In this document: piece after piece, positions 7,434 to 33,656 of the stretch | How the letters are laid out: each line of letters opens with the position of its first letter | How positions within the stretch are numbered: position 1 is the stretch's first letter | NCBI RefSeq assembly: GCF_011299615.1 | Contig: NZ_CP049861.1 | Coordinates: 1,116,001 to 1,180,000, forward strand | Source of the DNA: Erysipelothrix sp. HDW6C | Lineage (GTDB): Bacteria; Bacillota_I; Bacilli_A; Erysipelotrichales; Erysipelotrichaceae | Direction: 5' to 3' | DNA length: 64,000 nt | Made by a program: the position numbers and the translations under genes | Notes under the pieces: generated by a model | What the model was told of the DNA's origin: nothing | The model's input: only the letters and a program-made list of their open reading frames with translations | Databases searched by the model: none

Positions 7434-7520
7434 GTTGTTCACCTTCAAAACTATTTTACCATAAAGCAGTCCTATCGGTTGCAATGAACAATCGGTCTTG
7501 GTATTCTTAGAACGTATCAA

Positions 7521-7610
7521 GCAAAGTAAATAACATGTGTTAAGTGCTGAAGGATGGGAAGTAGCCTTTGGACGAAACGAAAGTGCAGTGTGTTATTGCC
7601 TCCGTTGCGA
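7521..7610 (+). promoter_or_regulatory. THF (folT) riboswitch
   Basis: The leader before folT matches the folT-type tetrahydrofolate aptamer block by block: GTAAATAAC, then GTTAAGTG, GGATGGGA, ACGAAACGAAAGTGCAGTG and TGTTATTGCCTCCG. GCAA (7521-7524) and TTGC (7605-7608) close the outer helix, and GTAAATAACA pairs with TGTTATTGC. Downstream, CCTTTTTC (7612-7619) can pair, with one mismatch, with GAAAGAGG, which carries the folT ribosome site. Control of translation is therefore likely. The assignment is from recalled sequence pattern, not from a covariance search. Confidence 0.85.
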
Positions 7611-30648: not shown

Positions 30649-30657
30649 GTGTTTACT

Positions 30658-31884
30658 ATTAAAGCAAAGAAAACGACAGAAACAGAAGTCGAAACAAAAG
30701 AAGCGCAAGATACGCGTCAACCTGAGTTTTCGCGTCATGATTTTGGGTGGGAAAGTCTAGCATCAGTAGAGGAGTCACGTCAAAATCAATTGATTTCCGA
30801 GATTTATAGTATTATGAATACCGGAGACGATGAGAAACTTGAGTTTATCAAACGAGAGTGGAGTTCATTATCAGAAGAGGGCATCGACGATGCACTTGAA
30901 GCACGCTTTAACCAAGCAGTTCACCGTTATGAAACACGTCAAGAACGTCTTGAAGAAGCACAGAATATCAAGAAGCAATTGATATTGGATGCCGAAGCAC
31001 TTAAAGATTCAAGTGATTGGAATAAAACTTCAAATGCTTTACAAGAACTTCAAAAGAAATGGAAAGAAGCAGGATTTGCCGGTGAAGATATTGATCAAGA
31101 TTTATGGGAGAAATTCCGTGGAATCAATGACCAATTCTTCGACAGACGCAGTTCACACTACGAAAAAATGTCTGAAAACCGTGATGAAGCACGCACAGTA
31201 AAAGAGGCATTGATTGTTGAAGTTGATGCATTGAAGGATTCCGAAGATTGGAAACAAACTTCGACAGATATGCGAAATCTTATGACACGTTGGAAACAAG
31301 CAGGATTCGCAGGACGTGAATATGAAGATGAATTGTGGGAACGTTTCAATAGCGCTCGTCAATTCTTCTATCAAAAACAACGCGAATTCTTCGACAGCAT
31401 GCGTGATACACAAAGTAAAGCACGTGAGATTAAAGAAGATGTAATCACACGCGCTGAAGCTCTGGTACAGGCATTCCATGCTGAAACAACCCGTGAGGGA
31501 ATGGAAGCATTATTCGAAGAATGGAAAGCAGCTGGACACAGTGGTCGTGACCACGAAGAAAAGCTATGGAATGAGTTCCGTGCAATCCAAGATGACTTCT
31601 ATGATCGCTTGAAAAACCGTGATGTTATGCAACGTCAAAATCGTGAAGATGAGGTATCCAATGATTTGGAAACTCTTGAAGTTCGAATTTCGGCACTCGA
31701 AAGCATTAATGAGAAAATTGCTGCAAAACTTTCAAGCCTTGAAGGACAACTTGCAAGCAACGACTCCGAAACATTACGTGAAGAAGTTGCTGGACTTAAA
31801 GCAAACTTAGAAGAAAATGAAGCACGATTGGCTGAATACCAAGCCGAATATGCTGAGTTGGATGCTGAACTTAACAAAATGTAG
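30658..31884 (+). CDS. DUF349-repeat coiled-coil protein
   Basis: The 408-residue charged helical protein carries at least three copies of the DUF349 unit, each with a WxxTSxxxxxLxxxWKxAGxAG pattern and a following LWExF (near residues 100, 175 and 245). The last 70 residues form a coiled coil. Function is unknown; proteins of this family appear in proteobacterial stress genes. Start choice is odd: AAAGAGGTG sits 6 bases before an ATT at 30658, while the in-frame GTG at 30649 is part of that ribosome site. I list the ATT start but GTG remains possible. Confidence 0.75.
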   Translation: MKAKKTTETEVETKEAQDTRQPEFSRHDFGWESLASVEESRQNQLISEIYSIMNTGDDEKLEFIKREWSSLSEEGIDDALEARFNQAVHRYETRQERLEEAQNIKKQLILDAEALKDSSDWNKTSNALQELQKKWKEAGFAGEDIDQDLWEKFRGINDQFFDRRSSHYEKMSENRDEARTVKEALIVEVDALKDSEDWKQTSTDMRNLMTRWKQAGFAGREYEDELWERFNSARQFFYQKQREFFDSMRDTQSKAREIKEDVITRAEALVQAFHAETTREGMEALFEEWKAAGHSGRDHEEKLWNEFRAIQDDFYDRLKNRDVMQRQNREDEVSNDLETLEVRISALESINEKIAAKLSSLEGQLASNDSETLREEVAGLKANLEENEARLAEYQAEYAELDAELNKM

Positions 31885-32112: not shown

Positions 32113-32139
32113 AAAAAAAACCGCATTTGCGGTTTTTTT
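32113..32139 (-). terminator. Terminator of the symporter gene
   Basis: AAAAAAACCGC and GCGGTTTTTTT around ATTT at the stop of the minus-strand symporter gene. Confidence 0.85.
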
Positions 32140-33427
32140 ATGCTGTAGGCTCAGTAATAGCATTTTGTCGTGTTGCGACAATTACAGTTGCAGTTGCAGA
32201 GCCTGTGACGTTTGCCATTGTACGGGCCATATCAACGATTGCTGAGATAGGCGAGAGTACAAAGATAATTTCAATTGGTAATCCAGCAGCTGTAAGTACA
32301 GCTGTTGCAGCGATTGTAGCGGTTCCTGGAACACCAGCAGTTCCAAGTCCAACAATTAATGTATAAACTACAAGTAAGACATATTGCATTGTAGTGAATG
32401 GAATATTAAGGGCATTGATGCTGAATACAGCCAATAGAATTGGCCAAATACCAGTACATGCAGCCATACCAACATTTGCTCCCAGACCCGCAACAAATGC
32501 TGCAATATCATCTTTTACACCGAGTTTTGTTGTAACTTGATCAATAACAACTGGAACAGTACCGATGCTGCTTTGTGATGTAAAGGCAACAACTTGAGCT
32601 GGCCAAATTGCTTTGAAGAACTTGATTGGGTTCATCTTGGCAAAAAGTCGGATTAAAACACCGTTAACAACGAATGCTTGGAAGAAACTTAAGATATATG
32701 CAATAACAATTACGAATACAAATGAAGCCAGGTCTTTTCCGCCATCACGTGTTGGAACGTTTGCGATATAAGCAACGACTGCATAAGGCGTCAAACGAAT
32801 GATTGATTTAACAAATGTGTTTGTAAGCTTGTTTGCGGACTCAAAGAATTTCATCATGGGTGCAGCACCTTCGGGATCCTTAGTGTTAAATTTAACCAAT
32901 GCGATACCGATGATAACTGAGAAAATAATAATAGGAATAACTTGATTTTCAGCAACATGACGAACAATGTTACTTGGGAAGAAACCAACAATTGTATCAA
33001 TGAATGTTGGTACTTCTTTAGCAACGTAATCTGTTGGTAAAGTAATGTTGAATCCCGATCCAAGTTTGAGGCCACCAGCCACAAGAACTGTAATTGTGCT
33101 GGCAATTGCCGTATTTAACAACAACCAGAATACAGAACTGAATCCGAGTGTACGTAATCGTTTGATGCTATCAAGCGATGCAATGCTTGAGATAATACTA
33201 AAGAATAACAATGGGGCAACAATTGAATAAATTAATTGTGTAAAGATGCGTCCAAAGGGTGTAACGTATTCCGTGCTTCCTTGGAATAGAAAACCAATTA
33301 CCAATCCAAATCCAAGGGCAATAATTGTTCGAATCCCAAAATTAACATGCTTCTTCGCAAGATAATACAGGAAACCATAAACTCCTAATGTCACAGCCAA
33401 TGCTATAACAGGCAGATAATTACTCAT
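32138..33427 (-). CDS. tcyP: Dicarboxylate/amino acid:cation symporter, probably L-cystine (TcyP-like)
   Basis: The 429-residue transporter has about eight helices and two re-entrant loops. The serine-rich loop reads AFTSQSSIGTVPVV, and the substrate-site helix reads DMARTMANVTGSATA, which replaces the NMDGT motif of glutamate carriers and resembles cystine carriers of the TcyP/YdjN group. The substrate call is strengthened by the leader RNA, which encodes a peptide with tandem Cys codons and ends in a terminator. The gene is monocistronic. GAGGAGG precedes the ATG. Confidence 0.8.
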   Translation of the reverse strand: MSNYLPVIALAVTLGVYGFLYYLAKKHVNFGIRTIIALGFGLVIGFLFQGSTEYVTPFGRIFTQLIYSIVAPLLFFSIISSIASLDSIKRLRTLGFSSVFWLLLNTAIASTITVLVAGGLKLGSGFNITLPTDYVAKEVPTFIDTIVGFFPSNIVRHVAENQVIPIIIFSVIIGIALVKFNTKDPEGAAPMMKFFESANKLTNTFVKSIIRLTPYAVVAYIANVPTRDGGKDLASFVFVIVIAYILSFFQAFVVNGVLIRLFAKMNPIKFFKAIWPAQVVAFTSQSSIGTVPVVIDQVTTKLGVKDDIAAFVAGLGANVGMAACTGIWPILLAVFSINALNIPFTTMQYVLLVVYTLIVGLGTAGVPGTATIAATAVLTAAGLPIEIIFVLSPISAIVDMARTMANVTGSATATVIVATRQNAITEPTA

Positions 33428-33440
33428 AAATCCTCCTCAT

Positions 33441-33462
33441 AAAAAAAAGTGCCACGGCACTT
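33441..33462 (-). terminator. Attenuator directly before the symporter gene
   Basis: On the minus strand AAGTGC, a CGTG loop and GCACTT form a 6-base stem followed by eight T (counting two in the stem). It ends only about 4 bases before the GAGGAGG ribosome site of the symporter and about 40 bases after the leader peptide stop, which is the expected place for an attenuator. The stem is short, so strength is uncertain. Confidence 0.7.
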
Positions 33463-33500
33463 GAAATATCATCTGTAATAAAAGTATTTTCTAAATGTCG

Positions 33501-33575
33501 TTATTTGACATGTGTAAAACTACACATGTGTGTATTTGTGGTGGGTTGGGTTTTGCAACAGATAACGAGATTCAT
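33501..33575 (-). CDS. 24-codon leader peptide with tandem Cys codons
   Basis: A small frame inside the symporter leader starts with ATG at 33575, 6 bases after AAAGGAG, and stops with TAA at 33503-33501. It reads MNLVICCKTQPT, then TNTHMCSFTHVK: Cys codons 6 and 7 (TGT TGC) are adjacent and a third is codon 18. A perfect 9-base hairpin (33508-33529) covers the third Cys codon. It lies between a consensus promoter and an attenuator in front of a cystine-type carrier. The design matches amino-acid attenuation leaders: ribosomes stalling at Cys codons would prevent termination. It has no described homologue that I know. Confidence 0.75.
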   Translation of the reverse strand: MNLVICCKTQPTTNTHMCSFTHVK

Positions 33576-33627
33576 AAAATGCTCCTTTACATACAACACA
33601 TGTATGTTTACTATGTGGTGTACGATT

Positions 33628-33656
33628 ATCATATAGAATTCAAAATTATATGTCAA
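33628..33656 (-). promoter_or_regulatory. Promoter of the symporter leader
   Basis: On the minus strand TTGACA (33656-33651) and TATGAT (33633-33628) are 17 bases apart. It gives a leader RNA of about 190 bases before the symporter ATG. Confidence 0.82.

Follow-up and report, generated by a model that had tools for sequence, protein, structure and literature searches.

The symporter gene and its promoter

The window, by which we mean the whole stretch of 64,000 nucleotides analysed here from the 2.36 Mb, single-contig genome of Erysipelothrix sp. HDW6C (the host genome), carries on its minus strand a gene for an SDF/DAACS symporter of 429 amino acids (32138-33427), preceded by the ribosome-binding (SD) site AGGAGG (33437-33432). 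The only Pfam domain detected in the protein, SDF (PF00375, E 2.5e-98), places it in the SDF/DAACS family, and no NCBIfam cut-off was reached in a profile search. The symporter gene appears to stand alone, since its downstream neighbour (30649-31884) is transcribed towards it. In a maximum-likelihood tree, the symporter falls within a clade of 20 Erysipelotrichales proteins (support 100/100), which joins two other clades at 99/96: the TcyP clade, in which E. coli TcyP stands with Enterococcus and Cytobacillus proteins annotated as L-cystine transporters, and the f11/f15 clade, drawn from other Bacilli. E. coli GltP and DctA fall outside this joint group. The position in the tree makes the symporter, judged by sequence, a TcyP-related carrier, for which cystine or cysteine would be the likeliest substrate given both the clade and the leader described below, yet it lies in a clade of its own, outside the TcyP clade proper, and its assignment as a TcyP orthologue was rejected for that reason. 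An earlier, sequence-only reading of this locus had named a cystine-type symporter, a description that holds for the grouping with E. coli TcyP but not for orthology.

Scanning for promoters identified on the minus strand a -35 box, TTGACA (33651-33656), and a -10 box, TATGAT (33628-33633), separated by a 17-nt spacer, as the sequence-only reading had it; this promoter ranks best among the 18 promoter-like sites of the scanned stretch (11/12).

A Cys-codon leader upstream of the symporter

On the same strand, a ribosome-binding site, AAAGGAG (33582-33588), precedes a 24-codon ORF, MNLVICCKTQPTTNTHMCSFTHVK* (33501-33575, ATG at 33575), whose codons 6, 7 and 18 specify Cys. The tandem codons 6/7 (TGT TGC, 33555-33560) are the proposed control codons, based on the translation and on the folding scan described below. 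Adjacent Cys residues occur in approximately 3% of the SD-ATG short ORFs in the window (4/120, this leader included). Between the leader ORF and the symporter SD lies an intrinsic terminator (33441-33462, minus strand), consisting of a 6-bp stem (33462-33447) and eight T/U residues running to 33441, and the end of the leader ORF overlaps a perfect 9-bp hairpin (33508-33529). ORF, hairpin and terminator are all present as first read from the bare sequence. As expected of a ribosome-mediated attenuator, a short SD-preceded ORF with codons for the putatively regulated amino acid stands before the gene. No Rfam family (T-box, S-box or others) was matched in the leader by covariance-model search, and an origin from a T-box or S-box was dismissed on this basis.

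Predicted folds of the Erysipelothrix leaders

RNA folding of the window leader delineated three interacting regions on the minus strand: region 1, the protector UCGUUAU (33562-33568); region 2 (33488-33504), in which AUAACGA (33504-33498) pairs with region 1 and ACGACAUUUAGAAA (33501-33488) provides the 5' half of an antiterminator; and region 3, UUUCAAGUGCCGU (33454-33466), the 3' half of the antiterminator, which includes the 5' arm of the terminator. The complementarity between CGTTAT (33567-33562) and ATAACG (33504-33499) pointed out in the sequence-only reading is real and extends to 7 bp (TCGTTAT/ATAACGA). In the predicted ribosome-free fold of the leader, a helix between 33568-33562 and 33504-33498 keeps the antiterminator from forming, and the terminator has a probability of 0.94, the same value as with a ribosome at the leader stop. 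Placing the ribosomal A site at codons 2-7 lowers the terminator probability to 0.30-0.37 (0.36 at Cys6/7), and from codon 9 it is 0.74. When an RNA ending before the 3' arm of the terminator was folded in the stalled state, 33501-33488 was freed and paired with 33466-33454, forming the antiterminator. The predicted switch was stable for ribosome footprints of 10-18 nt, at both 25 and 37 C. In the host genome the folds thus favour the antiterminator when the ribosome stalls and the terminator when it reaches the stop (0.36 versus 0.94), which lends support to the attenuator interpretation.

The mutually exclusive folds suspected earlier were recovered as a trp-type switch, but the decisive antiterminator (33501-33488 with 33466-33454) had been missed, and the ATGTC/GACAT pairing that had also been suggested, though possible, is absent from the minimum-energy folds. 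The 9-bp hairpin forms in the stalled state and may serve as a pause or spacer hairpin; it was rejected as the antiterminator because it does not overlap the terminator, and is not itself the competing fold. Cys codon 18 was likewise discarded as a control codon, since a ribosome placed there leaves the terminator at 0.91, outside the regulatory position.

When the intervening segment was shuffled, 22 of 500 sequences (4.4%) switched as strongly as the window leader, and for this reason we regard the RNA folding as support for the switch that is modest by itself and insufficient to carry the case. A terminator between leader ORF and gene was also found in four other Erysipelothrix species and in genus g73. 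The E. urinaevulpis leader gave terminator probabilities of 0.99, 0.53 and 0.98 at 37 C (no ribosome, stalled and stop, in this order; 13/500 shuffles as strong) and a weaker switch at 25 C, with a stalled value of 0.85. For E. inopinata the terminator is kept at equilibrium, and in the growing RNA its 5' arm is paired upstream with a probability of 0.72 in the stalled state versus 0.23 with the ribosome at the stop. Simple equilibrium folds of the E. aquatica, E. anatis and g73 leaders showed strong terminators that were favoured at every ribosome position, with no clear switch.

We therefore propose, with considerable confidence, that the locus is a ribosome-mediated transcription attenuator, in which a Cys-codon leader peptide is the sensor and the TcyP-related cyst(e)ine symporter the output. 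With ample Cys-tRNA(Cys), the ribosome would reach the leader stop and cover region 2 (33504-33488), allowing the terminator (33462-33441) to form. When Cys-tRNA is scarce, the ribosome would stall at codons 6-7 and cover region 1, so that region 2 could form the antiterminator with 33466-33454, and RNA polymerase would proceed into the symporter gene. Without translation, region 1 would pair with region 2 and the terminator would again form. In this model the elements, the conservation of frame and Cys codons (see below), the transporter clade and the predicted folds are results of the analysis, and stalling, read-through and the transport of cystine are what they would imply.

Cys-codon leaders in related genomes

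Upstream of the transporter gene, 15 of 22 relatives have a short SD-ATG ORF in which Cys codons are adjacent, compared to approximately 0.07 expected from dinucleotide shuffles of the upstream sequences; the 15 leader-bearing genomes are related and hence not independent, with six genera in three families contributing. The Erysipelothrix leaders are MGIQCCCTFSNDNWNTKV (E. aquatica), MEILCCCTFSNYNGNTKV (E. anatis), MNYFVKCCKLESQSVQFLYF (E. inopinata) and MKKSCCCKIINNKYNLTGDF (E. urinaevulpis); those of a second genus of the family are MRIRVLRMVCCHNRC, MSFRLNRIVCCHNRC and MLLNVNRIMCCHNRC, those of a second family of the order are MNFVLELQLRNNFRxGRCCCCFFNKE, MISVKILKNKKIFEWERMYGCCHN, MLEKSERRINLMRCC and MIFDDFIRKLYFERCW, and further relatives have MCCRNMNKRMCWFKQ and MYKMSRNYVNGMCCSQ.. 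in this position. In a different family of the class, two genomes of one genus with a carrier in the clade of E. coli TcyP encode MRKKYFLQKMLTSIMRAQHRCCQIG and a frame with ..RNRCCTWG.. The sequence-only reading had named, as a result that would refute it, relatives that keep the hairpins and lose the frame or its Cys codons; we found the opposite, as frame and Cys codons persist across genera and the hairpins, like the other residues of the peptide, differ in sequence.

The leader is not universal. It is absent from four of the 20 order-level relatives (G001, G225, G042 and G047), no f11/f15 relative has one with tandem Cys codons under the search used, no convincing Cys leader was found at the TcyP-type genes of Enterococcus, Cytobacillus and Melissococcus, and the leader of G073 has a single Cys codon. 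The leader of G077 (L035), MIFKLESQLRNHFRRNRCYYYF, has Tyr codons at three of the four Cys positions of its sisters (RCCCC), and its carrier is 86% identical (374/433) to that of G054; this exchange is possibly decay or a natural retuning of the sensor. By eye, a weak SD-preceded frame with a single, terminal Cys codon, MFNIKLFRC*, lies directly upstream of a TcyP-related carrier in a genome of another family (G473, L117). The annotated L-cystine transporter genes of Enterococcus faecalis (L133) and E. faecium (L134) have in common an upstream element, GGGAACCTTTACTTCCTT(T/C)GATG(T/G)ACTTGTCATTAA, which contains no Cys frame, matches no Rfam family and may represent a different leader control of tcyP.

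A different arrangement was predicted for genus g26, which belongs to a different family and in whose leaders, among them those of G073, G074 and G076, no terminator was seen. Folding paired bases at the leader stop of G076 and G073 (AACTGTC / AAACTGTC) with GACAGTT(T) over the transporter SD, and in G074 the Cys codons themselves joined the pairing with the SD region. With a ribosome placed at the Cys codons the SD became less paired, its unpaired fraction going from 0.21 to 0.70 in G074, from 0.22 to 0.48 in G076 and from 0.59 to 0.83 in G073, which suggests that the g26 leaders are a translational version of the control. Their Cys codons abut the stop, so that stalled and terminating ribosomes would stand in nearly the same place and only the dwell time would differ. 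The folds of G054 and G075 are less clear, the SD being masked even with a ribosome at the Cys codons. One could argue from the three g26 leaders, which have a helix between leader end and SD that is opened by a ribosome at the Cys codons and no terminator, that the leader works chiefly via translation or mRNA stability, with a stalled ribosome protecting or opening the transporter ribosome-binding site; we consider this unlikely, because the window leader places an eight-U terminator ahead of the SD and the probability of this terminator varies with ribosome position.

Across species, the leaders have in common the SD, the frame, its place and the Cys codons, and little else. The position of the first Cys codon of the run ranges from 2 to 21, the run may lie at any point between start and stop, and both the length of the leader and the residues flanking the run differ. 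This variability fits codon sensing and weighs against the notion that the peptide itself is functional, binding metals or thiols or sensing redox state, with Cys, the conserved residue, acting chemically; we deem such a peptide very improbable.

An operator-like element shared with cysK

Directly after the -10 box of the symporter promoter lies an operator-like 16-mer, CACATAGTAAACATAC (33602-33617, minus strand), which recurs identically at cysK in the host genome, right after the -10 region of that promoter (L145 2439-2454, minus strand). A gene of the Rrf2 family (PF02082) adjoins cysK divergently, and its product does not reach the NCBIfam cut-offs for CymR or IscR. A 15-mer of the element, ACATAGTAAACATAC, is found reverse-complemented at the same place in the leaders of a second genus, g73 (L030, L031 and L033). 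We regard the 16-mer as a candidate operator of a cysteine regulon, and its presence at both promoters, together with the divergent Rrf2 gene, makes a second, repressor-type control common to symporter and cysK likely. That such an Rrf2/CymR-like repressor, acting at the shared 16-mer after the -10 box and beside the Rrf2 gene at cysK, is the sole control and the short ORF a chance occurrence in an ordinary 5' UTR is the least credible account, as it would leave 15 leaders in 22 relatives against 0.07 expected and a terminator with competing folds that would be unneeded. The leader attenuator and the repressor-type control may act together.

T-boxes and other cysteine genes of the host genome

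An Rfam search of the host genome returned 14 T-box matches. The genes that follow them, named by eye from their translations, include, among others, leuS, ileS, asnS, serS, thrS, hisS, pheS and alaS, together with ABC transporters of amino-acid and methionine type; none of the 14 stands at a recognisable cysteine gene, cysS and cysK included, and cysS has neither a T-box nor a Cys frame upstream. In one instance, two tandem T-boxes precede an amino-acid ABC substrate-binding protein (G000:C1:92364-92819). A THF riboswitch (RF01831, 62.4 bits) lies elsewhere in the window, at 7520-7609 on the plus strand.

A further search for SD-ATG-Cys frames covered the genus and the order; in the host genome it gave, by eye, no other leader-like in-frame match save one or two short frames, among them MLRCC.. 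at genome position 304509. Of the in-frame matches examined in relatives, all but one sit within longer ORFs or on their opposite strand. The exception is in E. inopinata (L076 1280-1600), where an M-box magnesium riboswitch is followed by the SD-preceded frame MQSCCCRGIKQFNNRRNMLGGLTLSYRLL and a cation-transporting P-type ATPase, placing a Cys run in a magnesium setting.

Discussion

Enterobacterial trp and his attenuators combine tandem control codons with a region 1:2, 2:3, 3:4 pairing logic. The window leader follows the same region logic with another amino acid and another class of gene, and we claim no homology. A close comparison by its features is the uORFC-8-2 motif of the Rhodobacterales cysS leader, in which stems and an intrinsic terminator accompany a uORF whose codons 14 and 15 are both Cys, and which was proposed to sense Cys-tRNA(Cys) (PMC8632094); unlike the window leader this motif occurs in Alphaproteobacteria and controls cysteinyl-tRNA synthetase rather than a transporter. 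Short ORFs with Cys runs also precede cysteine-responsive cys operons in mycobacteria and other Actinobacteria (PMC1262725; Canestrari et al. 2020 as cited in PMC13236596). The polycysteine ORFs resemble the g26 leaders in lacking a terminator and in carrying the Cys run close to the stop, but they are leaderless, actinobacterial and linked to translational attenuation of biosynthesis operons, whereas the window leader has an SD and an intrinsic terminator.

In Clostridium perfringens, the symporters CysP1 and CysP2, which have limited similarity to B. subtilis TcyP, are controlled by a Cys-specific T-box that responds to Cys-tRNA charging by premature termination (PMC2940859). There the sensor is a T-box RNA that binds the tRNA directly; in the window it would be a translated peptide, and no T-box was found. 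In the host, where T-boxes stand at other amino-acid genes, a leader peptide appears to do this job for cysteine uptake. A broader reading would have a translated Cys-codon leader replace the clostridial Cys T-box as the sensor of tRNA-Cys charge for TcyP-related carriers in Erysipelotrichales and some other Bacilli, the output having changed, so that Erysipelothrix and g73 use transcription termination and g26 masks the carrier ribosome-binding site; we consider this reading evenly poised between true and false.

A His leader peptide attenuator replacing a T-box has been described for hisS/hisZ in bacilli (PMC2965389). It is, as here, an amino-acid leader peptide in Bacillota, but it serves histidine and genes of the aminoacyl-tRNA synthetase type, and before that case the same 2010 survey listed no such attenuator beyond Proteobacteria and Actinobacteria, the ermC leader aside (PMC2965389). 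In the literature searched, mostly open-access papers, no Cys leader is reported for any Bacillota or for any transporter gene, and no leader peptide for TcyP-type carriers.

Amino-acid leader-peptide attenuators have rarely been described in Bacillota, and the Cys leader is of note for its phylum, for the gene that it precedes and for the apparent change of output between genera. If our interpretation is correct, it would add a cysteine-starvation sensor in a little-studied lineage and show a gene family in which one sensor has replaced another, and it would offer a test at the level of codons, in which swapping two codons should alter the amino acid that is sensed.
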